NCBI GenBank assembly: GCA_020630805.1
Contig: JAHDIM010000003.1
Coordinates: 1 to 60,713, forward strand
From: Anaerolineales bacterium
Lineage (GTDB): Bacteria; Chloroflexota; Anaerolineae; Anaerolineales; UBA6668
Length of the DNA stretch: 60,713 nt
Direction: 5' to 3'
The position numbers were made by a program, and so were the translations under genes. A model generated the notes under the pieces. It did not search any database. It was not told the origin of the DNA and worked only from the letters and a program-made list of their open reading frames with translations. Positions 35,516 to 54,638 of the stretch are shown piece after piece. Position 1 is the first letter of the stretch; each line of letters begins with the position of its first letter.

Positions 35516-36514
35516 CTAGCGCACCGCGTCCAAAGCGAACTGTTCACCGGCAACCATTGCGTCATTTAGCGTTTTACCGATTAGTAGCGCTTCTTCACCT
35601 GGCGCAATACCAGTTCCCGGGCGCGTCCAGGTGAGGTCTGCTGCGGTCAGCACGTGCCCAGCAGCTAAATCATGGGCAGCCACAATCGATCTTCGGTAAG
35701 CTGAAACGCCCTGTTGTTCTGGCGCTTGAACAATTTTTTCGACGTTGCCGAGCATGTTCTCTACACGCCGCACCGCGGTCACTAAGGCCTGCAACTCAGC
35801 CGGATCTGCGGAGAGCTGATGGTCACGGAAATCAGAATAGTTTTTATCTAACGTAAAGTGTTTTTCAAGAATAGTGGCCCCAAGCGCAACCGCAGCAATA
35901 CAAGCATCAATGCCAAGGGTGTGGTCAGAATATCCCACAGCAATATCCGGATATTGCGCCTTGAGGAATTTGATTGTGTTCAACCCCGCATCTTGATCCA
36001 ACGTTGGATAGCTGCTAACACAATGTAAAAGCGCGAGTTCATTCTGGGTGTGAGCATGGGCCCGATAAACCTTGACCAAGGTGTCAATTTCAGCACCAGT
36101 ACACAATCCTGTTGAAATAATTGTTGGGTTTGGCAAGGCCGCTGTCGCGCTAATCAATGGAAAAAACTGGTTATCACCCGAGGAAATCTTCACAAAATCC
36201 ACTGCATTGCCAACAAACGCAACGCTGGGAACATCAAACACGCTGGCCGATGTTTTCACGTTGAGCGTGTGTGCCAAGGCAAACAGCTCTTGAAATTGGT
36301 CGTCTGTCAGTTCGTAAGACTTCAACTGCGCTAAGCGTTTATTTTTCTCTGGCCCAACCAAACGTTCAGGACGAATCACCTGAAATTTAACAACATCTGC
36401 ACCACTTTCTGCGGCAGCATGCACCATTTCTTTGGCAACAGTAAAGTTGCCTTCATGATTATTACCAATTTCGGCAATAACCAATACGGGTCCGTTTGAT
36501 AAAGAATTACTCAA
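35516..36514 (-). CDS. NeuB-family nonulosonate synthase (SpsE/LegI-like)
   Basis: Condenses a 6-carbon amino sugar with PEP to a 9-carbon nonulosonic acid. Seen: VIAEIGNNHEGNFTVAKEM, GADVVKFQVIRPERL, IISTGLCTGAEIDTL, GYSDHTLGIDA, EKHFTLDKNYSDFRDH, and a C-terminal antifreeze-like SAF domain. The DFRDH segment differs from the PGPDH of the copy at 49542 and the PTADR of the copy at 41188, so substrate choice probably differs. Start is a TTG with AGAGG just upstream. Confidence 0.92.
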   Translation of the reverse strand: MSNSLSNGPVLVIAEIGNNHEGNFTVAKEMVHAAAESGADVVKFQVIRPERLVGPEKNKRLAQLKSYELTDDQFQELFALAHTLNVKTSASVFDVPSVAFVGNAVDFVKISSGDNQFFPLISATAALPNPTIISTGLCTGAEIDTLVKVYRAHAHTQNELALLHCVSSYPTLDQDAGLNTIKFLKAQYPDIAVGYSDHTLGIDACIAAVALGATILEKHFTLDKNYSDFRDHQLSADPAELQALVTAVRRVENMLGNVEKIVQAPEQQGVSAYRRSIVAAHDLAAGHVLTAADLTWTRPGTGIAPGEEALLIGKTLNDAMVAGEQFALDAVR

Positions 36515-39470: not shown

Positions 39471-40463
39471 TCAATCTAACGTAATTTCAGTTCCCGTTCG
39501 GATTGACTCTTCAATTGCTAAACACACGCGCATCACATGGAAGACATCAGCCTTCAACACATAGGGATTACGATCGTCACGAATTGCATCCACAAAATCA
39601 CGCACTAGTTCGCCTTTATCAACAGCGGGGTAGGCCTGATCGGTAATCATCGGGCTATCCTGATGTGCCCGCGACGTATAGTATTTGCCGCCCTCTAAGG
39701 TGTTCTCAAATGTCTTTTTCGCGCCGTATACGCTCATCCGATGGAAATGCGGGTAGACACAGCCAAAGTTTGCCGAAACCTTACCAACCACCCCATTTGC
39801 AAATTTGAGTAAGCAAACTGTGAAGTCATTATAGGCAAATGTTGTATCTGCTGAGACAATTTTATTTCCCATCGCAGAGACGGACGTCACTTTACTATCC
39901 ACTAGCCAGTACAGCAAGTCAATTACATGAATCGCTCCGCCAAAAGTCACTGAATAATAAGGGATCTGTCCGCGCCAGCCTGCAACAATTTTATGCAAGC
40001 GCCCATAATTGTAATCGCCTTCCACAAAATAGAGGTCACCGAATTCCCCAGCGTTAACCTGCTGTCTGAGATCTTGAAATCGCGGCGCTTGGCGCAAGAT
40101 CAAATTAGACGAGAGTTTTAGGTGCTTATGCTGAGCCGCTAACGCTTCAATTGCAGTCAGTTCTGCGGCGGTAAGGCAGATAGGTTTTTCAACAAAGACG
40201 TGCTTACCAGACGTCAGGGCTGCTTCAATTTGTTCAAAATGATGATTGTCATAAGACGCAATGACGACCGCATCAATTTGCGGATCGGCCAAGATAGCCG
40301 CTGCATCAGTATGCGAACGTGCCAAAGGAAATTGCGCGTGGACGGCGGCCAGCTTATCGGTATCAAAATCGGCAATCGCGAGCAATCTTGCATCTGGATG
40401 ACTTGCAATAGCATGGGCGTGCCGTTCGCCAACCCCAAGCCCAATAACGCCAAAGTTAATCAT
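39471..40463 (-). CDS. Gfo/Idh/MocA family oxidoreductase
   Basis: N-terminal Rossmann motif FGVIGLGVGERHAHAI, AVVIASYDNHHFEQI, and the family signature GKHVFVEKPICLT with the catalytic Lys. The C-terminal sheet domain has FGGAIHVIDLLYWLV. Oxidises or reduces a sugar hydroxyl/keto group with NAD(P). Such genes accompany NeuB and SpsF genes in many flagellar or spore-coat glycan loci, but no exact step is proven. It overlaps the cytidylyltransferase stop by 8 bases. Confidence 0.9.
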   Translation of the reverse strand: MINFGVIGLGVGERHAHAIASHPDARLLAIADFDTDKLAAVHAQFPLARSHTDAAAILADPQIDAVVIASYDNHHFEQIEAALTSGKHVFVEKPICLTAAELTAIEALAAQHKHLKLSSNLILRQAPRFQDLRQQVNAGEFGDLYFVEGDYNYGRLHKIVAGWRGQIPYYSVTFGGAIHVIDLLYWLVDSKVTSVSAMGNKIVSADTTFAYNDFTVCLLKFANGVVGKVSANFGCVYPHFHRMSVYGAKKTFENTLEGGKYYTSRAHQDSPMITDQAYPAVDKGELVRDFVDAIRDDRNPYVLKADVFHVMRVCLAIEESIRTGTEITLD

Positions 40464-41151
40464 GATAAGTCTCTAAAAAAGCTTGATAACGTGCAACAAG
40501 GTCAGTTACATCTAACCGGCCAACGGGGTCAGCTATGGTTGCTAGGAAGGCATTCAAAATGTTGTAATCCTGCTGGGTGTCAACAGAAAGTTGTAAGTCA
40601 CCAGCGGCGAGACCACTAGTGAAGTTTTCAATGTTAAACGCCGCTGAATTACGGTAGAAGTAACGTGTGACATGCTCTTGATCTTGCGCATCAAAGGCTG
40701 CGATGTTGGCCTGAAATAAATCAGCCGTAACAACTTCAACAGACAACCCTTTCGGGTACGACCGCTCCAGCGTGTTGGTGACAATGTCACTCGTGCCGTG
40801 TTGATGCAGCTGAATTGCGCGTTCTACAATCGAGATATTTACAAGCGGGCTATCGCCACAAATGCGAACAAATGCTGCCGCCGGATATTGCGCAAGCACC
40901 GTCTGATAGCGCTGCGCAACATTTGCCAAAGCGCCCCGAACACAAGCAATATCATGCGTCGCACAATACGCCGCAATCGAGTCGTCTGACGGTTCGCTAG
41001 ACGTTGCAATCACAAAGCGATTGGCTAAAACTGACTGGTCTAAGGCGTCCGCCAAATGTTGTAACAACGGCTTACCCGCTAGCGGTAGCAACACCTTCCC
41101 CGGTAATCGGGTAGAAGACATTCGTGACTGAATAATGCCAATATAAGTCAT
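40456..41151 (-). CDS. SpsF-type cytidylyltransferase (CMP-nonulosonate synthetase-like)
   Basis: Starts TYIGIIQSRMSSTRLPGKVL, the nucleotide-binding loop of SpsF/KdsB-like enzymes, with VIATSSEPSDD, VRICGDSPLVNI (metal Asp) and HVTRYFYRN. Activates a nonulosonic acid with CTP. The ATG at 41151 is one codon inside a TTG-started frame. A second such domain is fused in the gene at 51646-53736. Confidence 0.88.
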   Translation of the reverse strand: MTYIGIIQSRMSSTRLPGKVLLPLAGKPLLQHLADALDQSVLANRFVIATSSEPSDDSIAAYCATHDIACVRGALANVAQRYQTVLAQYPAAAFVRICGDSPLVNISIVERAIQLHQHGTSDIVTNTLERSYPKGLSVEVVTADLFQANIAAFDAQDQEHVTRYFYRNSAAFNIENFTSGLAAGDLQLSVDTQQDYNILNAFLATIADPVGRLDVTDLVARYQAFLETYHD

Positions 41152-41187
41152 CAAAAAGTTACCCGCTATAGCAGCAGGTGCGCCCGG

Positions 41188-42237
41188 CTAAGACGCAATC
41201 AGCTCCCAAGAAAGCGGTGTACCAGCAGCAACATCTGCTAGGCACTTACGCCCAATAACTGCCTCATAATTGCGCGTGTGTAACCCATGTGCTGGCCGCA
41301 CGGAGCGCACATTCTCAGCCGTAAACACCTCGCCAGCTTTAATGTCTTTGGAAACAAATAAAGACCGTCTAAACTTGATCGTCGCTTTCTCTTTATCTGT
41401 GCGTTGATACTTGATTTCACCCAAGGCTTTTTCTGTGGTTCTAATGGCCGTCACCATTGCTTTAAATTCGGCCGGTTCCATTGAAAACGCACGGTCAGCC
41501 GTCGGCATCTCACGTGATAATGTGAAGTGCTTTTCTACAATACAGGCGCCTAATGCCACCGCTGCTACAGGGATCGTTGCCCCCATCGTATGGTCAGACA
41601 AGCCACTGGGCACATTAAATGTTTTCGCCAAATGTGGAATTGTAGACAAGTTCATTTCTTCAGGAATAGCTGGATAGGAGCTCGTGCATTTCAACAATGC
41701 CAATTGTTCACACCCTGCCGCACGGGCAGCGGTAACGGCTTCGTCAATTTCCGCTAAGGTTGCCATGCCGGTTGACATAATAATCGGCTTGCCCGTTTGT
41801 GCCACGTACTTAATAAGCTGTACGTCTACATTTTCGAAAGACGCAATCTTGAAGACCGGCACATCCATCTCATTTAGAAAGTCAACAGCGGTCAGGTCAA
41901 ACGGCGATGAAAAACAATGAAGCCCTAAGTCTTCTGCAATTGCTTTCAGCTTAGGTTGCCATTCCCAAGGTGTGTATGCAGTTTGGTACAAATCGTAAAG
42001 GTGTTGACCTTCCCAAATTGTGCCGCTTTGCAAAAATAAATCACTATGACAATTAAGCGTAATCGTATCTGGAGTGTAGGTTTGTAATTTGATAGCATCT
42101 GCACCAGCGGCCTTAGCAGCTTCAACAATTCGGACGGCTACGTCAAAATCTTGCATATGGTTGGCAGACATTTCAGCAATTACATACGTGGGATGACCGG
42201 GGCCGATTTTACGGCCAGCAATTTCAATAAAATTCAT
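41188..42237 (-). CDS. pseI: Pseudaminic acid synthase
   Basis: NeuB-family TIM barrel with clear PseI hallmarks: IAEMSANHMQDFDVAVRI, IKLQTYTPDTITLNCH, GTIWEGQHLYDLYQTAYTPW, SDHTMGATIPV and EKHFTLSREMPTADRAFSM, plus a C-terminal SAF domain. It condenses 6-deoxy-AltdiNAc with PEP to give Pse. 349 residues. The matching PseG is 8.3 kb upstream in the same transcript; PseB and a definite PseC are not in the window. Confidence 0.95.
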   Translation of the reverse strand: MNFIEIAGRKIGPGHPTYVIAEMSANHMQDFDVAVRIVEAAKAAGADAIKLQTYTPDTITLNCHSDLFLQSGTIWEGQHLYDLYQTAYTPWEWQPKLKAIAEDLGLHCFSSPFDLTAVDFLNEMDVPVFKIASFENVDVQLIKYVAQTGKPIIMSTGMATLAEIDEAVTAARAAGCEQLALLKCTSSYPAIPEEMNLSTIPHLAKTFNVPSGLSDHTMGATIPVAAVALGACIVEKHFTLSREMPTADRAFSMEPAEFKAMVTAIRTTEKALGEIKYQRTDKEKATIKFRRSLFVSKDIKAGEVFTAENVRSVRPAHGLHTRNYEAVIGRKCLADVAAGTPLSWELIAS

Positions 42238-45388: not shown

Positions 45389-46006
45389 CTAGCGGTACAT
45401 GTACACAGTAAAGTCATGACCCAAATAATCATGACGCAGGATAACGTTGCGTGTCAATGTCTGGCAGAAAGCCAACACGCGGCTGGGATCTGCGTAAAAC
45501 TCACCAGGCTCCAACGTATCTGCTAGGCTGCTTAGAGAGTTGAAGATCAGCCCCTTTTTAGAAAGCGCAAACATCCGTGCAACAAGCGTTTGCATATAGT
45601 CTTCTGCGGCTTCCCCTAGCAAATAAAAGATACCGTTGGCGGTAACGTAATCAAATGTAACATCAAACTCCAATTCGCAGATATCACCGCGATAGAAGGT
45701 CAACGCTGGGTGCAGTTCACGGGCGTTGTCGATCATTTGTTGAGAAAGATCTAACCCATAGTAACTAATATTTGATTGTCCATTTGCCTGTAAGTAATCG
45801 GCATAGTCTGCAAACCCACAGCCAACATCTAATAAGTTGAGCGCGCTGGTTTCTCTGATGCCTGCACTGATTACTTCAAACTTAGCCAATTGGGAGCTTG
45901 CACGCCCATAATCACATGCGCGCGGATCATGCCCGTATTGGTTAATAAGCGCGCTATAGTAATTTTCAATATCAGATTGCTTGGCTTTCCAGTCTTGACT
46001 ATTCAT
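45389..46006 (-). CDS. Class I SAM-dependent methyltransferase
   Basis: A 205-residue enzyme with LNLLDVGCGFADYADYL (motif I), YYGLDLSQQMIDNA and FDYVTANGIFYLLG. Start ATG 46006 overlaps the upstream aminotransferase stop by 8 bases. The lead HDPRACDYG resembles small methyltransferases of nonulosonate loci. Substrate unknown. Confidence 0.86.
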   Translation of the reverse strand: MNSQDWKAKQSDIENYYSALINQYGHDPRACDYGRASSQLAKFEVISAGIRETSALNLLDVGCGFADYADYLQANGQSNISYYGLDLSQQMIDNARELHPALTFYRGDICELEFDVTFDYVTANGIFYLLGEAAEDYMQTLVARMFALSKKGLIFNSLSSLADTLEPGEFYADPSRVLAFCQTLTRNVILRHDYLGHDFTVYMYR

Positions 46007-47045
46007 TTGAGTACGAAACGATCACTTCTTGCAGGTTACTTACAACATACGCCAATTCTGTATCTGTTAGCGTTGGATACAAAGGAATTGAGAGCACCTG
46101 ATTATAGGCGCTTTTCGCGTTATGTGTATGGGCAAGCGGATAAAGGTCTGTACTCCAATCTTCAATGGGCGGGTAGGTAGTAATACCCCGGTCAGATAAA
46201 GCGGATTGGATCTCTAAAAAAGGCAATTCAGCGAGGTCAATTACGAAACGGTACCAAACGCGATTTGGGGTAGCAGGCGGCAGGCTAATCACCGGCAGCG
46301 CCGCAAAGCTGGCTAAGTAGCAATCCGCAAGCCGTTGCCGCTGCGTAACAAACTCTTGATATTTTTGTAATTGCACCGTGGTAACGGCCGCTTCAAGGTC
46401 AGACATTTTGTCATTCAGGCGCTGCGGGTGCGGCTTTTTATCGGTGTAATCCCGCCAGTCCAGTACAAAGTCGTAAAGCGCCTTTGTATTTGTAAGTACG
46501 GCCCCACCTTCGCCACCACCAATCATTTTTGTTGCATAGAAAGACGTAATGCGGATATCTGCCGTAACGTTTTGCAACGGAAACCCATGGGCGCAGTCTT
46601 CAATAATTGGCATACCAAGCAGTGCTAAGCGGGCAATATCTGCCGGATAGCCAAAGGTATTGACGGCGATAATTGCCTGCGTCTTAGCAGTAATTGCAGC
46701 CGCCGCTAACGCTGGATCGATGCACAATGTATCGTGCTCCACGTCTACGGCAATCGGCACAGCCCCAACAGCAAGCACAGCATTGATAATCGCAACACAG
46801 CTGTACCCCGGCACAATCACTTCCCCCTCAGCAGTCACGCCCAGTGCTAGCAGTGCTAAGCGTAATGCAGAAACGCCAGACGCAACGGCAACAGCAAAAT
46901 TCATACCGCCTAACGTTGCAACAGAGGTTTCGACTGCAAGTACCGCATCACCGCCCGCCCAGTAACCAGACGCCGCAGTGCGTTCAGCAGCCGCGACCTC
47001 GCGCTGATCAAAAGTAAGCCGGTTGTGTGGAATATGTAATGCCAT
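45999..47045 (-). CDS. DegT/DnrJ/EryC1 sugar aminotransferase
   Basis: PLP enzyme with VAVASGVSALRLALLA, PIIEDCAHGFPL and the Schiff-base Lys in SFYATKMIGGGEGGAV. The C-terminal part carries RLNDKMSDLEAAVTTVQL. It is the best in-window candidate for a PseC-like step, next to a PseH-like GNAT, though its SFYATKM motif differs from classical PseC. 348 residues, slightly short for the family. Confidence 0.88.
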   Translation of the reverse strand: MALHIPHNRLTFDQREVAAAERTAASGYWAGGDAVLAVETSVATLGGMNFAVAVASGVSALRLALLALGVTAEGEVIVPGYSCVAIINAVLAVGAVPIAVDVEHDTLCIDPALAAAAITAKTQAIIAVNTFGYPADIARLALLGMPIIEDCAHGFPLQNVTADIRITSFYATKMIGGGEGGAVLTNTKALYDFVLDWRDYTDKKPHPQRLNDKMSDLEAAVTTVQLQKYQEFVTQRQRLADCYLASFAALPVISLPPATPNRVWYRFVIDLAELPFLEIQSALSDRGITTYPPIEDWSTDLYPLAHTHNAKSAYNQVLSIPLYPTLTDTELAYVVSNLQEVIVSYSNE

Positions 47046-47055
47046 GCGGGCCTAA

Positions 47056-47514
47056 TTATGTACGGGGTAGCACATAATGCAAAATATCAGCGTCTGTTTT
47101 AGTGGGATTTGGCACAAACCCAACTTTAGAGAAAGACGCAACAGATGCCTGATTAGTGGGAAGAATTTCGGCATCAATTTGCGCAATTGGCCATGCCGCA
47201 AACGCCATTTCACAGCCAAGCCGCAAAGCACGCGTCCCTAAACCCTGGCCAATATAGTCCCGCTGCAAATAAATAGAGACTTCAGCAGCAGCTAACGTGC
47301 GTGCAAAGCGCACTGTTCCAATTGGCACATCTCCAGCGGACGTGGTGAGGGTCGGGATATAAAATAGCCAGTCTGGGCTAGCAACAACGCGGGTAAACCA
47401 AGCAGTATGTTCTGCCAAGGTAACTTTACGGTTCAACGTTCCTAAAGAAACAATCCAATCGCTATTACGCCATGCAAACACTAGCGGCAAATCCGCCGCT
47501 GTTGCTAGGCGCAT
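47056..47514 (-). CDS. GNAT N-acetyltransferase (RimL/PseH-like)
   Basis: The GNAT domain begins RLATAADLPLVFAWRN, with EVSIYLQRDYIGQGLGTRAL (acetyl-CoA loop) and QASVASFSKVGFV. Together with the DegT gene it fits PseH, which acetylates the 4-amino group in Pse synthesis. I chose ATG 47514, at the edge of the domain and 13 bases clear of the upstream stop; frames from 47562 or 47634 overlap that gene and add residues of no known domain. Confidence 0.82.
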   Translation of the reverse strand: MRLATAADLPLVFAWRNSDWIVSLGTLNRKVTLAEHTAWFTRVVASPDWLFYIPTLTTSAGDVPIGTVRFARTLAAAEVSIYLQRDYIGQGLGTRALRLGCEMAFAAWPIAQIDAEILPTNQASVASFSKVGFVPNPTKTDADILHYVLPRT

Positions 47515-47527
47515 ACGCAATGTAGGC

Positions 47528-48193
47528 TCACTTCTTTTCAACAACGACTCTCCATTCAGCATGTTGGCTATTGTCAGCACCAACCTGATTATTCCAGAGC
47601 GTTTCTTCACAAGTGTGCATGTGCCAATTGGCAACCGGGAACATCTCCATAATCATAGCTTGAGTATAAAAACAAATTGCGCCAACACCGGTTAGGTTGC
47701 CTTGCGTAATTTCTGTATTCAGCCCGCTTTTGCCAGCTGCACTCGTATGACTAACAGAATACACATTAAAAAAGAATTTACCGCCAGCTTTTAGTGTTCT
47801 ATGCACTTCAGCGACAGCTTGTTGCGCTTGCGCGTAAGCACAGCAGGTAATCCCAGCACGGTCAATCGCCAGATGAAATACGGCATCCTCAAAAGGAAGG
47901 CTTGTAAAGTCGGCGACACGCAAATCTGCGGTGAGACCTTCTTCTACAAAGCGCTGTTTTGCATACTCGATTGCGGTTGTGCTGCCATCAATGCCAGAGA
48001 CAGAAAACCCTTCGCGGGCCGCAAACCAAAGATTACCTGCCGTTCCACAGGCAACTTCTAAAATTTCAACCTGATTGCGTTCAATGTCGCGCGGGGCATT
48101 CCGGAAAACAAATGACACAACCGCATCCCATGGATAGCGATTCCTATGCCCTTGTGAATAGAGCTCATTCCAGATTGGGTCAAATGCGGTCAT
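47528..48193 (-). CDS. Class I SAM-dependent methyltransferase
   Basis: Motif I VEILEVACGTAGNLWFAA, SGIDGSTTAIEYAKQRF and FHLAIDRAGITCC, with KAGGKFFFNVYSVSH. ATG 48193 overlaps the flavoprotein TGA (ATGA), which favours it over a 21-residue longer frame. The family resembles small methyltransferases in nonulosonate loci. About 220 residues. Confidence 0.87.
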   Translation of the reverse strand: MTAFDPIWNELYSQGHRNRYPWDAVVSFVFRNAPRDIERNQVEILEVACGTAGNLWFAAREGFSVSGIDGSTTAIEYAKQRFVEEGLTADLRVADFTSLPFEDAVFHLAIDRAGITCCAYAQAQQAVAEVHRTLKAGGKFFFNVYSVSHTSAAGKSGLNTEITQGNLTGVGAICFYTQAMIMEMFPVANWHMHTCEETLWNNQVGADNSQHAEWRVVVEKK

Positions 48194-49539
48194 AAAAGGC
48201 AACCTTGTAATTCTGTGTAAATGGTTGATTTGCCAACTTGCTCTGTATCCAGCCAAACGAACGGAGCATATTGCGCAAGCTCTTGTTTGAGCTGCTCTAA
48301 TTCGGCTAGATAACCCGGTTTAGCGAGACTATATGTTTTGGGCACCCGATAGTGCACAGAATCTACATAGGTAGCCGTTGGCGTCACAATCTCACTTTGG
48401 ATAACTTCTTGCCAAAGCTGATCACGATACTGCGCAATATCTTGCCAATACGCAGATCCAACTGGCGTGACCACTTCGCAGCAAATATAAGAGTATCCCG
48501 GCGGTGCAGTGTTCAAATTATCGATGTAACTACCCGGTGTAGAAATGCGATACGCAATTTCTGCAGCATCATAGTTGTGTATGTATGTGATGTCCGTCAC
48601 ATCGGTAGACTTTACCGCGAAATACATCAGCACCATCGGCACCGCTTCAGTCAATGTATCAAGCTTATAACGACCCGCACAAAAGGGCGTAAACGTTGCT
48701 TTTGGTAACGTCCAAAACAAGCGATCCGCTTCAAAAGACTGTCCGTCTGCGGTGCTGACACGGGCATCGTTTGGCGTTAGCAGCACATCATTAACTGCGG
48801 CGCCTAGATGCAAAGAAACCCCACTACTTCTCAAATTAGATGTCGCAATGTCCAAAAAGTCATCAAACCCACGCAATGTCGGGTAGAAATTACGAAAGTC
48901 GCGCTGCTGCACTTTGTCTCGATAAAACTCCAATGGATCCGCCGCAGAAGACACGCCAAGCCGATCATCAAGATATGGGGCTTGTTTGAACAACAAAGAC
49001 GTCTGTCGATCAAAGAGTTGAATCCGCTGAAACATTGTTTGAGGCAATGCGTTGGCTGAAATCGCTTCTGGCCGGACGCTATACGCTTTTAGGAAGGCTG
49101 CCGCAACATGCGGATATAACGTCGGGCCAAACCGCTGTACAAGTGCCTCGGCTAAACTGTGATTAACGCCGTCACTACTAGCATGGCTAGCCTGAGCAAT
49201 TTCTAGCAAACTAACGGCACTTGTAGCCTGCGGCAAATGCAAAAAGGTTGGAATTGCTAATCCATTAACAGTTTGCCCGCCGCTAATAGATGCATAATTT
49301 ACAGTGAGCGGCGCAAAATTACCATTGCCCAACTCCCAAATAAAATCAGTAAAAGAATCGCTACTGTTGTCAAAGAGATGGCAGCCTTTATCAAGCAGAT
49401 AAGCCCCCCACTTAATTGGGCGTAACACCCCACCAAGCTTTGGGGCAGCATCAATCAAAGTTACATCTTGGCCTTTTTTTGCCAACAGGTAAGCTGTAGC
49501 AATGCCTCTAAATCCCCCGCCTACAACAATATTTCGCAT
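48190..49539 (-). CDS. FAD-dependent oxidoreductase, UDP-galactopyranose mutase-like
   Basis: The N-terminus NIVVGGGFRGIATAYLLAK binds FAD, followed by VTLIDAAPKLGGVLRP and LDKGCHLFDNSSD, where the Gly-x-His-(L)-Phe element parallels GPHIFHT of UGM. A second FAD-contact region is near FEADRLFWTLPKATF. 449 residues, longer than the copy at 13809. It may oxidise or isomerise a nonulosonate precursor. Coupled by ATGA to a methyltransferase, as at 13809/13812. Confidence 0.78.
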   Translation of the reverse strand: MRNIVVGGGFRGIATAYLLAKKGQDVTLIDAAPKLGGVLRPIKWGAYLLDKGCHLFDNSSDSFTDFIWELGNGNFAPLTVNYASISGGQTVNGLAIPTFLHLPQATSAVSLLEIAQASHASSDGVNHSLAEALVQRFGPTLYPHVAAAFLKAYSVRPEAISANALPQTMFQRIQLFDRQTSLLFKQAPYLDDRLGVSSAADPLEFYRDKVQQRDFRNFYPTLRGFDDFLDIATSNLRSSGVSLHLGAAVNDVLLTPNDARVSTADGQSFEADRLFWTLPKATFTPFCAGRYKLDTLTEAVPMVLMYFAVKSTDVTDITYIHNYDAAEIAYRISTPGSYIDNLNTAPPGYSYICCEVVTPVGSAYWQDIAQYRDQLWQEVIQSEIVTPTATYVDSVHYRVPKTYSLAKPGYLAELEQLKQELAQYAPFVWLDTEQVGKSTIYTELQGCLL

Positions 49540-49541
49540 AC

Positions 49542-50597
49542 TTATTTTTGCAAATCTGTTTTAGAAAACATATACCCAATCGCAACATCATGCGGCAGCG
49601 TATACCCAATTAGGTAGTCCATTTGGGCTGGCGGTAAGCCACTGCCCGGACGCCGAAAGGCGATGTCATCTTTAGACAGAGTGTGCCCCTTTGGCAACGC
49701 CCGCGCCGCAACGCAAGACAAGCGATAAGCCTCACGGTTTTCATTTTCTACACCGCTTAGTCCCAGCGCCGAAACGCCAAGATTCGCTTCAATCTTACGA
49801 ACCCCTTGCACAAGCTGCGTAAATTCAGCCGGGTCTGAAGAAAATCGATGATCTGGGCCAGGCAAATTGCGATCTAACGTGAAATGTTTCTCAATGAAGC
49901 AAGCCCCTAATACCACTGCGCCAATCGCCGCCTCAATACCTTCTGTGTGATCACTAAAACCCACTGGCACCCCAAAGGTCTGTTGTAAAGATGGAATCTT
50001 GCGCAAATTCACCTCATCTGAGGGACACGGATAAGCAGACGTACAATGCAAAAGCACTAAATTCTGATTGCCTGTGGCCTTAAATGCCCGCACAGACTCG
50101 TCAATATCAGCAACGGTTGCCATGCCAGTAGATAGAACGGTGGCAACGCCACTTTGCCCCATATAAGCAACCAGCGGCAGGTTAGACAAATAGTCTGAGC
50201 CATTCTTAACAATTGGGGACCCTAGCGCCACTAGCGCATCAACACCATTTTTGTTAGTAGGCGTGCTATGAAAGATAATGCCAACTTCATCACAATACGC
50301 CTTCAACATGCCCAACTGAGCATTGCTAAGTTCATACCGCTTGAACATATCAAACTGAGGCTCGCACACGGGTTCACCCTGTGAGATATAGTCATACATC
50401 AGTGAGCGATCAGATAGAAAATCTTCGGTGACATAGTTCTGAAACTTGACAGAATCAGCACCAGCTTCCTTAGCAGCATCAATCATTTGCTTTGCTAAAT
50501 CCATATCACCGTTATGGTTGATACCAATTTCTGCAACAATAAAGCACGGTTCACCCGCACCAAGCGCACGGTCTCCAATTGTAATTTTAGTGTTCAT
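49542..50597 (-). CDS. NeuB-family nonulosonate synthase (NeuB/LegI-like)
   Basis: Seen: FIVAEIGINHNGDMDLAKQM, ADSVKFQNYVTEDF, TVLSTGMATVADID, GFSDHTEGIEAAIGAVVLGA, EKHFTLDRNLPGPDHRFSS, and a C-terminal SAF domain. The PGPDH segment is the Neu5Ac/Leg-type version. The ATG at 50597 overlaps the upstream PseG stop by 11 bases; a frame to 50642 adds 15 residues. 351 residues. Confidence 0.94.
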   Translation of the reverse strand: MNTKITIGDRALGAGEPCFIVAEIGINHNGDMDLAKQMIDAAKEAGADSVKFQNYVTEDFLSDRSLMYDYISQGEPVCEPQFDMFKRYELSNAQLGMLKAYCDEVGIIFHSTPTNKNGVDALVALGSPIVKNGSDYLSNLPLVAYMGQSGVATVLSTGMATVADIDESVRAFKATGNQNLVLLHCTSAYPCPSDEVNLRKIPSLQQTFGVPVGFSDHTEGIEAAIGAVVLGACFIEKHFTLDRNLPGPDHRFSSDPAEFTQLVQGVRKIEANLGVSALGLSGVENENREAYRLSCVAARALPKGHTLSKDDIAFRRPGSGLPPAQMDYLIGYTLPHDVAIGYMFSKTDLQK

Positions 50598-51636
50598 AAG
50601 ACAACATCGCCTCAACGACGCGGCTGGCACCTTTGCCATCAATTATGGTGGCCGCACGCTGGCCTAACTGTTTACGTAATGCTGGCGCAGTTAAGAAATG
50701 CGCTAAGCGTTTTTGGACAGCAGCCGTTGACTCTGGCGTAATCACCCGTAAATCAACCTGCAATGCTGCCGCCGCATTTGCTAAATATAATGCGTTGGCA
50801 TTCTGGTTATCTGCAAGCACGCAAATAAACATTGGCAACGCAAAAAATGCGATCTCCCAACACGTAGAACCACCGGCACAGATAACCGCATCAAACGTCG
50901 GAATAAATGTTGCCATATTTTCTACATAGTGTATTAGCGTCACATCATGTGGCAGCGTTTGCACCAACTGCTTCAATTCCGCAACATGCTCATTTTGGGG
51001 ACCGGTAATCACGGTCAGGGAAAGCGGCTTTGCTTGGAACGTAGCCAATGCTTGCAAAATACGCTGCGTGACGTTATCAGGATCGCTGCCGCCCATCGTA
51101 ATCAGGACAGAAAGTTGCGCATTAGTCGGTTTAGGCAACTGCGAAGCCGTAATAAATTCAGACCGTAACAGTGTATATTGCGTACCAAGCAGTAAACGCG
51201 CCTGTGGGCTACTGTCCTGATAGGGATAGTCTGCCGCTGTAATGTTTTGATTGAGGATCAGGTCTGCCTGATAAGTAGGGAGATGATGATAGTCGTCTAA
51301 GACGAGCAGTTGCCAACCCGCCATTTTAATCTGTTCTTGATAGGCAAGATCAAAGTGATAGCCATCTAATACCACCCAGTCGGGTTGGACCCGTTGAATG
51401 TCACCTAAAAGCGCTGCCAATTGCTTTGCCGGCGGCGCTGAAGGTGAGACAGGCAGAATCTGCGCAGACAATAGCAAGAACTTCGCCAGCAAATCTGGCG
51501 CGGTGCAGTCTGTCACAACAACAAGCTGACCGCCTGTGGCATGCCAAGCCTGACCCAAAGCGAGGCAGCGCATAAAATGCCCTACCCCAATCTTTGGATT
51601 CGCATCTATTCGTAATAAAAGAGTTTTTTCTGGCAA
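50587..51636 (-). CDS. pseG: UDP-2,4-diacetamido-2,4,6-trideoxy-altropyranose hydrolase
   Basis: Releases UDP from the Pse precursor. The N-terminus has RIDANPKIGVGHFMRCLALG with the catalytic His at about residue 20, then VLDDYHHLP, SVLITMGGSDPDNVTQRIL and DAVICAGGSTCWEIAFF of the GT-B type. Related to SpsG. The start is a TTG; no ATG precedes the conserved R-I-D-A. Overlaps the NeuB-type gene by 11 bases. Confidence 0.93.
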   Translation of the reverse strand: MPEKTLLLRIDANPKIGVGHFMRCLALGQAWHATGGQLVVVTDCTAPDLLAKFLLLSAQILPVSPSAPPAKQLAALLGDIQRVQPDWVVLDGYHFDLAYQEQIKMAGWQLLVLDDYHHLPTYQADLILNQNITAADYPYQDSSPQARLLLGTQYTLLRSEFITASQLPKPTNAQLSVLITMGGSDPDNVTQRILQALATFQAKPLSLTVITGPQNEHVAELKQLVQTLPHDVTLIHYVENMATFIPTFDAVICAGGSTCWEIAFFALPMFICVLADNQNANALYLANAAAALQVDLRVITPESTAAVQKRLAHFLTAPALRKQLGQRAATIIDGKGASRVVEAMLSYEH

Positions 51637-51645
51637 GGGTAGCCG

Positions 51646-53736
51646 CTAGCTAACTAAGCGTTTGAACCGCGAGTGCGCTTCAGGACCAATCAGCGCGTCT
51701 TGAATAGTGTCCGTTTCGATATGATCTTTGAGAATACGGAAGACTTTCTCTACAGAGACCAAATACTCGGCGACGATTTCGGCGCTGTGCGCGTTTGTGA
51801 AATACACGCCACCGGTTGCCAAATAGCCCTCAGAAAGCATGTATTGGGTAAACAATGTGCGTAATGCGTTGGCTTGCGGGTGGTCAAAGCCAAAATGGCT
51901 TAATGCCGGCAGCCCGTCAACATGTACAGCAATCCCTACAGTCTCGGCAGCAGCCCGCCAGCCTTCTTGCACCTGATGGCCAAGTGCATTCAATTTCTCG
52001 GCAACATTCGCCGCCTGATATTTACGGATTGTTGCAATCGCGGCAGCTGGCCCAATTCGTTCAGTCCAGTAAGAGCTACTGATAAACGTTTCTTGCGCCG
52101 CGCTCATTACGCCTTCAGTCCCAATAATTGCGGCCATGGCATATCCGTTGCTCACCGCTTTGGCAAACATTGCGATATCTGGATTCACATCATAAAGCAA
52201 GTGCGCTCCGCCAGCATTTTGCCTAAATGCCGCTGTGCACTCGTCAAATACTAGTACAGCGCCAATTTCATCCGCAATTGCGCGTACAGCCGCTAAATAT
52301 CCCGGCTCAGGCTGAACAGTCCGGATCGGCTCCATAACGATTGCCGCCACTTCGCCAGCGTGCGTGCTGACAAGGTCGCGCAAATTTTCAATATTATTGA
52401 ACTCAAATGGGAAGGTCGTGCCAACTAATCCGCGCGGCACACCCTTTGGCGCTAAGCCTGGAATTAGATGGCCGTCTAAGCCAGCATCATCTGCCAAATT
52501 TGTAGACAGATACCAGTTATGCCAACCATGATACCCACAAAATAAGACTTTATCTTTACCCGTGGCGGCGCGTGCAATCCGGACAGAAATTGCCATTGCT
52601 TCGCCACCAGTGCGGGCATAGCGCACCATATCAGCCCAAGGATGCAGTTCACACAACAGTTCGGCCAACTCTACTTCTTCTGGACAGTTCAGCGTAGACA
52701 TCACGCCATTTTGAAAGGCCTCAAGCACGGCCGCATCCACATCCGGATCCTTAGCACCCAGAATGCAAGTGCCAATGCCATTGTGTGCCATATCAATATA
52801 AGCATTACCATCCAGATCCCAAACGGTTACCCCTTCAACTTTGCTGTAATAAGAAGGCCAAAGATCGGGCAACATCATTTCTGGCCGCTTGGATAACAGT
52901 TGGGTGCCACCTGGAATTAGGCTTTTGGCATGTTCGTATAGTTTCTGACCAGTTCCGTTTTGAAAGTTGTTATCTGTCATGAGTCCACGCTCTGCTGCTA
53001 GGGATTTTGCATACCCTTCATTGCGTTCATACATTGTGTTGTATGTCATCAAATGTGGGTTTGCTTTTACATATGCCAATGTTTCTGCGTAAGTAAACGC
53101 AGGATTATTAGCGTACAAGGCTTGATAAATAATATCGATTAGTTCGAAATCTTCTGGTTCATCTACGGTCCAACGTAAGTGCGACCAGTTTTCTGCAGCG
53201 CCTAAGTGTCCAATTTTGAACAATTCAGGCTGCCGATTGATGTAAGGGGTAACGTGTTCACGCTGTGAGGGGAGCTCAGCGTTTTGCCACGCTTCTTTCA
53301 GAGCGTCTAGGCTAAAGACTTCAACATCTAACCCGTCTGGAAAAACAGGGTTGAGCGCATTGGTTGCATAATCAAAGTCGTTATTCAAATAGAGGTCAAT
53401 CACCTCATCAATAATCTCTGGATCAATAACGGGGCAATCCCCTGTCAGGCGTACCACGGTGTCAATGTCAGGATATTGCAGTGCGGCCTGATAAAACCGA
53501 TCCAGCACATCGTTCAAATCGCCAGCGAACGCATCCACCTGATGCGCCGCGCACAGGTCAAGAATTTGCGTGTCACTGCTATCGTTACTGGTTGCAACAA
53601 CAAGTTTGTCAATTCGCTTAGAGCGCTGTACGCGCCGAACCTGCTGGATAAGCATTGGCGCGCCCGCTAAGTTTTTCATGACTTTACCGGGCAATCTTGT
53701 AGAAGAAAAGCGAGCTTGAAGAATTGCAAGAATCAT
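51646..53736 (-). CDS. SpsF cytidylyltransferase fused to class III aminotransferase
   Basis: One 696-residue frame with two enzymes. Residues 1-235: SpsF-type transferase with LAILQARFSSTRLPGKVM, VRLTGDCPVIDPEI and SQREHVTPYI. Residues from about 256: class III, glutamate-1-semialdehyde-type aminotransferase with IPGGTQLLSKRPEMML, VIFDECTAAF-like VLVFDECTAAFRQ, and the PLP Lys in MFAKAVSNGYAM. Both active sites appear intact. Joining CMP activation to an amination suggests an aminated CMP-nonulosonate or precursor. ATG overlaps the aldo/keto reductase stop. Confidence 0.9.
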   Translation of the reverse strand: MILAILQARFSSTRLPGKVMKNLAGAPMLIQQVRRVQRSKRIDKLVVATSNDSSDTQILDLCAAHQVDAFAGDLNDVLDRFYQAALQYPDIDTVVRLTGDCPVIDPEIIDEVIDLYLNNDFDYATNALNPVFPDGLDVEVFSLDALKEAWQNAELPSQREHVTPYINRQPELFKIGHLGAAENWSHLRWTVDEPEDFELIDIIYQALYANNPAFTYAETLAYVKANPHLMTYNTMYERNEGYAKSLAAERGLMTDNNFQNGTGQKLYEHAKSLIPGGTQLLSKRPEMMLPDLWPSYYSKVEGVTVWDLDGNAYIDMAHNGIGTCILGAKDPDVDAAVLEAFQNGVMSTLNCPEEVELAELLCELHPWADMVRYARTGGEAMAISVRIARAATGKDKVLFCGYHGWHNWYLSTNLADDAGLDGHLIPGLAPKGVPRGLVGTTFPFEFNNIENLRDLVSTHAGEVAAIVMEPIRTVQPEPGYLAAVRAIADEIGAVLVFDECTAAFRQNAGGAHLLYDVNPDIAMFAKAVSNGYAMAAIIGTEGVMSAAQETFISSSYWTERIGPAAAIATIRKYQAANVAEKLNALGHQVQEGWRAAAETVGIAVHVDGLPALSHFGFDHPQANALRTLFTQYMLSEGYLATGGVYFTNAHSAEIVAEYLVSVEKVFRILKDHIETDTIQDALIGPEAHSRFKRLVS

Positions 53737-54638
53737 TTATTTACCTGCCATAACCCTGGGTTGAGATAGTGCGAATCACCTTGAAAACTAAACTTTTGAT
53801 ACTCAGCCTGTGTCAATGCGGCTGGCGCTTGCCACAAAGTATTCAATTGCCTAAGTTGGGCTTCTGAATTGACACCAACCACAGCAACATCAATAGCTGG
53901 ATGCGTTTTCACATAATCCAACGCTAATTGTAATTTTGAAATATTACGCGGCTCAGTTTGGGCAAACACGGCATTCAGATGCGCAACAAGCGGCGCAAAG
54001 TAAGGATCGAGATTGCCTAAATCCATCACAAGTAAGCCCTGCAAAAATACAGACCGCGCATGAATTTCTACGCCCCGCGATTTTAGCGTATTTAGAAATG
54101 TGTGCCCTGCTGTCGTAGGGTCTAAATAATTGACAGGGATCTGCAACACATCAAATTCAAATTTCGAAAAAAGTTGCTCTGCTTCTGCAACTGAGTAAAC
54201 AGAAACGCCAATTTTTTCAACCAGCCCTTGCTGTTTGAAGCGTCGCAAAAGTGCATAAAAATCCGCTGCCCCAGCCACGTGTAGGTTATTTGCCGCGTGA
54301 ACTAATACCGCATAAATCTTTTCAAGTTGTAAATTTTGTAGCGATTGGTCAAATTCTTGTTGCAACTGTGCAATTTCAGCGGGACCAATATTTGTATACG
54401 GCTGTGCGCCAATTTTAGTAATGACCTGTGCCGTTTTTGTCTGTGCAGTAAAGTTACCCAGTACACGCTCACTATCGCCATAGGCTGCGGCGGTATCTAA
54501 ATACGTCACGTTTGCGCTAGCGGCGTAGTTCAAAATCGTTTCAACTTCAGCTAAACTCGTTTTGCCAGCCGCATTGGAAATGCCATAGTCAAGGCCAAAT
54601 TGAACCGTTCCAAGCCCAAGGGCACTGGTTGTCATCAT
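53733..54638 (-). CDS. Aldo/keto reductase
   Basis: TIM-barrel NADPH reductase: LGTVQFGLDYGIS, the tetrad in LDTAAAYGDSE (Asp, Tyr), VITKIGAQ (Lys) and YAVLVHAANNL (His). The C-terminal AVVGVNSEAQLRQL binds the cofactor. Frequent in nonulosonate loci next to PseG/SpsF genes, where it may reduce a keto sugar. 301 residues; ATG 54638 is followed by another ATG. Confidence 0.9.
   Translation of the reverse strand: MMTTSALGLGTVQFGLDYGISNAAGKTSLAEVETILNYAASANVTYLDTAAAYGDSERVLGNFTAQTKTAQVITKIGAQPYTNIGPAEIAQLQQEFDQSLQNLQLEKIYAVLVHAANNLHVAGAADFYALLRRFKQQGLVEKIGVSVYSVAEAEQLFSKFEFDVLQIPVNYLDPTTAGHTFLNTLKSRGVEIHARSVFLQGLLVMDLGNLDPYFAPLVAHLNAVFAQTEPRNISKLQLALDYVKTHPAIDVAVVGVNSEAQLRQLNTLWQAPAALTQAEYQKFSFQGDSHYLNPGLWQVNK

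Follow-up and report, generated by a model that had tools for sequence, protein, structure and literature searches.

Pseudaminates occur as surface sugars on flagella, in capsules and in O-antigens, and they matter for phage and immune recognition. Within their pathway PseB acts as a 4,6-dehydratase, hence the product is 9-deoxy and, past the PseI step, its sole free exocyclic hydroxyl is at C8. In the Kdo8N pathway of Shewanella, position C8 of a 2-keto-3-deoxy sugar acid receives an amine: KdnA and KdnB, a dehydrogenase and PLP transaminase pair, act on Kdo at the primary alcohol through enzyme families other than those considered below. The Kdo8N sugar itself is documented (PMC3210612), as is the O-polysaccharide of Flexibacter (Tenacibaculum) maritimus, which contains 8-amino-3,5,7,8,9-pentadeoxynonulosonic acid (PMC3210612); no genes or synthesis assigned to this T. 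maritimum 8-amino nonulosonate were found in the searchable literature. Tailoring of pseudaminate has been demonstrated by NMR in Acinetobacter baumannii prophages, where EpaA, a fusion of an SpsF-type cytidylyltransferase with an aldo/keto reductase (AKR), and EpaB, an SDR, turn Pse5Ac7Ac into its 8-epimer (PMC12053666). A bifunctional SpsF-AKR enzyme in a Pse cluster of Vibrio B9-25K2 likewise joins an SpsF-type domain to a tailoring enzyme (PMC7371886). Finally, the Aeromonas group I flagellin glycosylation islands (PMC7874193) and the Legionella pneumophila Sg6/12 O-antigen cluster (PMC3694923) have been drawn with a reductase or aryl-alcohol-dehydrogenase-like gene, a cytidylyltransferase, a class III or glutamate-1-semialdehyde (GSA)-type aminotransferase and pseG, with no function assigned to either the reductase or the aminotransferase.

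The window, a stretch of 60,713 nucleotides from an Anaerolineales bacterium (contig JAHDIM010000003.1), contains a locus with the same kinds of enzymes in a different arrangement (Table 1). Its AKR is a separate gene and its SpsF-type domain is fused to a GSA-type class III aminotransferase (GSAT), whereas the AKR is the fusion partner in EpaA and in the Vibrio enzyme, and the Aeromonas and Legionella genes are unfused. The fused ORF begins with ATG and has no internal stop. CTP_transf_3 scored 115.3 bits (Pfam cut-off 22.6) and Aminotran_3 125.3 bits (cut-off 30.5), and an alignment of 22 fusions shows Q7, A8, R9, R14, K18, R96, T98 and D100 of the cytidylyltransferase domain as well as the PLP lysine K526 and D498 of the aminotransferase domain to be invariant. 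Judged by score and motifs, the former is an SpsF/PseF-type CMP-sugar synthetase domain, predicted to transfer CMP to a nonulosonate, and the latter, by its Aminotran_3 score and the lysine and aspartate, is a class III aminotransferase. The AlphaFold2 model, for which 21 aligned fusions served as input, has a mean pLDDT of 86.9 and shows two folded domains, which are connected through residues 251-259, a linker modelled with low confidence. Foldseek searches with the aminotransferase domain led to structures of glutamate-1-semialdehyde aminomutase (GSAM) and of the aminopentol transaminase FumI (PDB 6hbs); the latter has a GSA-type fold (TM 0.88 by target length) but is a catabolic and not a sugar enzyme, at 24% identity. 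The initial annotation had described one frame joining a CTP-transferase and a PLP enzyme, both with intact motifs, with PseG and a NeuB homologue as neighbours, and all of this is borne out: neither active site is lost as far as the sequence tells, PseG exceeds its curated cut-off, and the NeuB homologue is confirmed, albeit under both synthase equivalog cut-offs. Two separate genes merged by a frame error are unlikely because the same single-frame fusion is present at 21 further loci fetched from plasmids and genomes, and mis-assembly was rejected on the same ground.

Table 1. Features of the nonulosonate locus in the window
Feature	Position	Strand	Basis
Fused SpsF/PseF-type cytidylyltransferase and GSA-type class III aminotransferase, 696 aa	51646..53736	minus	single ORF, Pfam, 21 other fusions aligned, model
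Cytidylyltransferase domain, residues 4-201	53134..53727	minus	CTP_transf_3 E 4.5e-33; motif residues invariant; nearest solved sequence 6oew
Predicted flexible linker, residues 251-259	52960..52986	minus	pLDDT below 50
Class III aminotransferase domain, residues 296-622	51871..52851	minus	Aminotran_3 E 3.3e-36; Foldseek to GSAM and FumI structures
Codon of PLP-binding lysine K526	52159..52161	minus	invariant in 22 fusions; sequence
Aldo/keto reductase (AKR), proposed C8 oxidoreductase	53733..54638	minus	Aldo_ket_red E 3.6e-31; tetrad; association with GSAT
PseG-type UDP-sugar hydrolase	50587..51636	minus	TIGR03590 218.9 bits, cut-off 153.55
NeuB-family nonulosonate synthase, start codon uncertain	49542..50642	minus	NeuB Pfam E 5.4e-82; NnaB 350.3 and PseI 262.4 bits, both under cut-off
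Candidate N-acyltransferase (GNAT acetyltransferase with weak likeness to PseH)	47056..47634	minus	TIGR03585 33.2 bits, cut-off 93.1
DegT-family sugar aminotransferase, same locus	45999..47045	minus	DegT_DnrJ_EryC1 E 3.9e-64; PseC 152 bits, under cut-off
Pseudaminic acid synthase PseI, same locus	41188..42237	minus	TIGR03586 499.2 bits, cut-off 340.25
Second, unfused SpsF-type cytidylyltransferase	40456..41154	minus	CTP_transf_3 E 4.8e-27

The likeness of the aminotransferase domain to GSAM (HemL) in sequence, fold and PLP lysine would fit a housekeeping enzyme of the heme pathway that was fused with SpsF accidentally or through mis-assembly. This explanation is vanishingly improbable and was rejected: the fusion scored 177.9 bits against a HemL equivalog cut-off of 527.3, a separate GSAM-like protein with the GSAM motif SPVRAF is encoded on contig C223 of the same genome, and the fusion is seen again in many genomes. 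The fusion also falls under the NCBIfam PRK06209 equivalog cut-off (236.7 vs 486 bits), belongs to a different operon and lacks the substrate-side motif SPVRAF, in place of which S282 and K283 are invariant in the fusions.

The 21 other single-frame fusions, from plasmids and genomes, are 32-51% identical, and in many genomes SpsF and GSAT are neighbouring separate genes. Searches of plasmids with tblastn returned a full-length fusion from Pseudosulfitobacter and an adjacent two-gene version from the archaeon Halorussus, and a scan of genomes added a Prochlorococcus fusion and, from a Spirochaetia MAG, another two-gene version. Full-length open-frame matches occurred in 8 of 369 sampled genomes from the class of Aliiglaciecola, 4 of 299 from its phylum (one genome falls in both samples), 2 of 244 from the phylum of Prochlorococcus, 7 of 148 from the phylum of a Desulfarculales MAG and none of 149 from the phylum of the Spirochaetia MAG; at the threshold used, the window was the sole case among 301 genomes of its phylum. 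When named phage genomes were queried, no record covered 80% of the fusion and none matched the window AKR. A quick tree of the aminotransferase domain, with long branches and unable to distinguish gains from losses, mixes fused with split forms within two large groups and requires at least seven changes of state; a single clade of all fused forms, and with it a single origin, was rejected (p-AU 2.7e-30). The best reading of the fusion is repeated joining or splitting of two enzymes working in sequence. The fusion itself is not the novelty, as split and fused forms alternate.

Just upstream of the fusion lies the AKR gene, whose stop overlaps the fusion start as ATGA, and PseG begins 9 bases past the fusion stop, so the three look like one operon. 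The catalytic tetrad D48, Y53, K75 and H114 is invariant in 21 cluster AKRs, and by this Asp-Tyr-Lys-His signature the window protein is an aldo/keto reductase. It went unmentioned in the initial annotation and would supply the ketone needed by the transaminase. Loci annotated with profiles made here follow a recurring order across phyla, pseB-pseC-(AKR)-SpsF-GSAT-pseG-pseI, with SpsF and GSAT fused or not. Since a choice of loci by GSAT was to be avoided, the association was scored in the 7-kb neighbourhood of 51 PseG-selected loci, which stem from two phyla and are to some extent related by descent. All 13 GSAT-containing loci carry an AKR (8) or a Gfo/Idh/MocA protein (5), two unrelated oxidoreductase families filling the same place, as opposed to none of the 38 loci without GSAT (Fisher p 2e-12); within the SpsF-containing loci the figures are 13/13 with GSAT and 0/10 without (p 9e-7). 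A class III aminotransferase had been considered unexpected in this setting, a view that needs adjusting: it is recurrent in a subset of pseudaminate clusters, 13 of the 51, and had already been drawn without a function in the Aeromonas and Legionella clusters. The trio of oxidoreductase, SpsF and GSAT is a strong rule of pseudaminate clusters. It is not absolute, because an oxidoreductase was detected in 35 of 71 viral loci with GSAT and went undetected in a few bacterial ones; the GSAT loci without a detected oxidoreductase include L076, L077, L079, L090 and L096. The Gfo/Idh/MocA family also occupies the place of the AKR next to GSAT in other genomes, and at 39471-41154 of the window a Gfo/Idh/MocA oxidoreductase lies beside the second SpsF and the true PseI.

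This pairing bears on the idea that GSAT makes an amino acid or other amine which is then attached as a substituent, the nonulosonate itself not being its substrate. Class III relatives do act on amino acids, yet the constant company of a sugar-type oxidoreductase and the repeated joining to a CMP-sugar synthetase would go unexplained, and we consider the idea very unlikely. Some mass data speak to both possibilities. The polar flagellin sugar of A. hydrophila AH-1 has a mass of 403 Da (oxonium ion m/z 404), its fragments differ by one unit from those of a Pse derivative, and its formula as published is without nitrogen (PMC4691044). With a mass of 403, the nitrogen rule makes an odd number of nitrogens fit this sugar. 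According to our composition calculation, 403 Da is matched by 8-amine compositions and also by acetamidino or amino-acyl Pse derivatives, the last of which would suit an attached substituent, so that the AH-1 sugar is suggestive only as a pointer to an 8-amine.

PseB (498.5 bits) and PseC (453.7 bits), both over their curated cut-offs, are located on contig C152 and not on the window contig, in a draft assembly that is 84% complete with 6.8% contamination, and PseB, PseC, PseG and PseI equivalogs, the set that marks a pseudaminate pathway, are all over cut-off in this genome. The pse genes on C152 adjoin FemAB, methyltransferase and FAD genes, the same kinds as around the fusion; an FAD/amine-oxidase-like protein is found near pse genes both at 48190-49539 of the window and on C152. 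The synthase adjoining the fusion scored 262.4 bits with the PseI model, under the cut-off of 340.25, and therefore the substrate may be another nonulosonate isomer. Three NeuB-family synthases are present in one glycan locus (35516-36514, 41188-42237 and 49542-50642), only one of them over the PseI cut-off, and this genome might produce several nonulosonates.

A PseC homologue is present in 32 of the 47 SpsF+GSAT loci, therefore GSAT would usually add a second amination. PseC was undetected in the other 15, and some PseC-less loci have pseB directly before the AKR or the fusion, which might indicate that GSAT aminates elsewhere, e.g. at hexose C4 (the future C7) in place of PseC or at another ring carbon, with the AKR carrying out a separate reduction. 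We regard this as unlikely in view of the PseC retained in most of these loci and the true PseC of the window genome. Furthermore, the fusion to a CMP-synthetase recurs, which points to a GSAT step past PseI.

Our preferred interpretation, which we hold to be probable though well short of secure, is that the fusion and the upstream AKR form a module that aminates C8 and activates the sugar with CMP in a pseudaminic-acid-type pathway, apparently a variant that previously had no assigned function. It builds on what was observed directly, i.e. the fusion with both active sites, the AKR tetrad, the gene order, the association of oxidoreductase and GSAT, and PseB and PseC of the genome. PseB, PseC, an acetyltransferase, PseG and a NeuB/PseI synthase would provide a 5,7-diamino-9-deoxy nonulosonate, whose C8 hydroxyl the AKR would oxidise to an 8-ketone, a methyl ketone. 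The PLP domain would transaminate this ketone to the 8-amine, with glutamate as the probable donor, and the SpsF domain would couple the sugar to CMP either before or after amination, so that the predicted product is CMP-5,7,8-triamino-3,5,7,8,9-pentadeoxynonulosonate for surface glycans. Methyl ketones, to which 8-keto-pseudaminate belongs, are a common type of substrate for class III transaminases; the target of FumI is a CH3-CH(NH2)- group. The putative scheme would share with KdnA/KdnB the logic of a dehydrogenase and a PLP transaminase placing an amine at C8, although those enzymes differ in substrate, in the type of alcohol and in family. Amination of C9 or another chain position had been proposed in the initial annotation; a chain position is still the best reading of the sequences, while C9 is disfavoured because PseB renders pseudaminate 9-deoxy and C8 is left as the only free exocyclic hydroxyl.

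The module resembles EpaA/EpaB in linking an SpsF-type cytidylyltransferase to an AKR and, presumably, in acting at C8 of a pseudaminate. It differs in its partner enzyme, as the window contains no match to the SDRs of Marinovum or Priestia. Layouts closer to EpaA/EpaB were found on plasmids of Marinovum (SDR and SpsF-AKR, not far from a gene for pseudaminic acid synthase), Maritalea (SDR and SpsF-AKR) and Priestia (AKR and SDR adjoining pseG-pseH-pseI), and the AKR domain of the Marinovum fusion is 33% identical to the window AKR. On the Maritalea plasmid (L268:3298-6045) the SpsF-AKR fusion beside the SDR also includes a BNR repeat-like region. A search for SpsF-AKR fusions in 143 genomes from the class of Aliiglaciecola (G307) yielded only AKRs, none shown to be fused. 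Because EpaA/EpaB epimerises C8 and related AKR layouts exist in plasmids, we infer a shared C8 oxidoreductase with two outcomes, where re-reduction by an SDR leads to the 8-epimer and transamination by GSAT would lead to the 8-amine. The same relationship could instead be taken to mean that AKR and GSAT isomerise the chain without a third nitrogen, by C7/C8 epimerisation or as a 7,8-aminomutase comparable to the mutase chemistry of GSAM: the nearest relative by fold and sequence is an aminomutase, and the related AKR and SDR module does yield an 8-epimer (PMC12053666). Such isomerisation is very unlikely, however, as epimerisation is already served by AKR and SDR, an 8-amino sugar occurs in nature (PMC3210612) and the SPVRAF of GSAM is replaced by an invariant SK.

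Genes of this kind were also observed in viral contigs. Near-complete nonulosonate pathways with an oxidoreductase and an SpsF-GSAT fusion are present in L177, L183, L184, L188, L217, L226 and L228, several of which hold Gfo, SpsF+GSAT, PseB, PseC and PseI; L217 and L228 also carry an adjacent gene for a terminase large subunit. On viral contig L187, homologues of PseI, PseB, AKR, GSAT, FemAB and SpsF stand in a row, followed by a match to a virion structural protein. A GSAT subgroup in L113, L120 and L121 is accompanied by SpsF and a NeuB homologue, with a transketolase-like gene beside this set in L113 and an SDR after GSAT or fused to it in L120 and L121; it possibly represents another amino-nonulosonate route. 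A further pathway fusion is the 1153-residue open frame at L148:2965-6426, which has SpsF and PseG domains and is followed by PseI.

On a broader scale, we see roughly even chances for a widespread nonulosonate branch that makes 8-amino (triamino) pseudaminates in bacteria, on a haloarchaeal plasmid and in phages, where a C8 oxidoreductase feeds either an SDR or GSAT and these enzymes have repeatedly been fused to the CMP-sugar synthetase. For a rare sugar with an 8-amine, the module offers a first set of genes that can be tested. If the proposal is true, the combination of oxidoreductase, SpsF and GSAT would act as a simple genomic rule predicting an additional amine on the surface sugars of several phyla and in phages, and the common label of 'glutamate-1-semialdehyde aminomutase' would be corrected.
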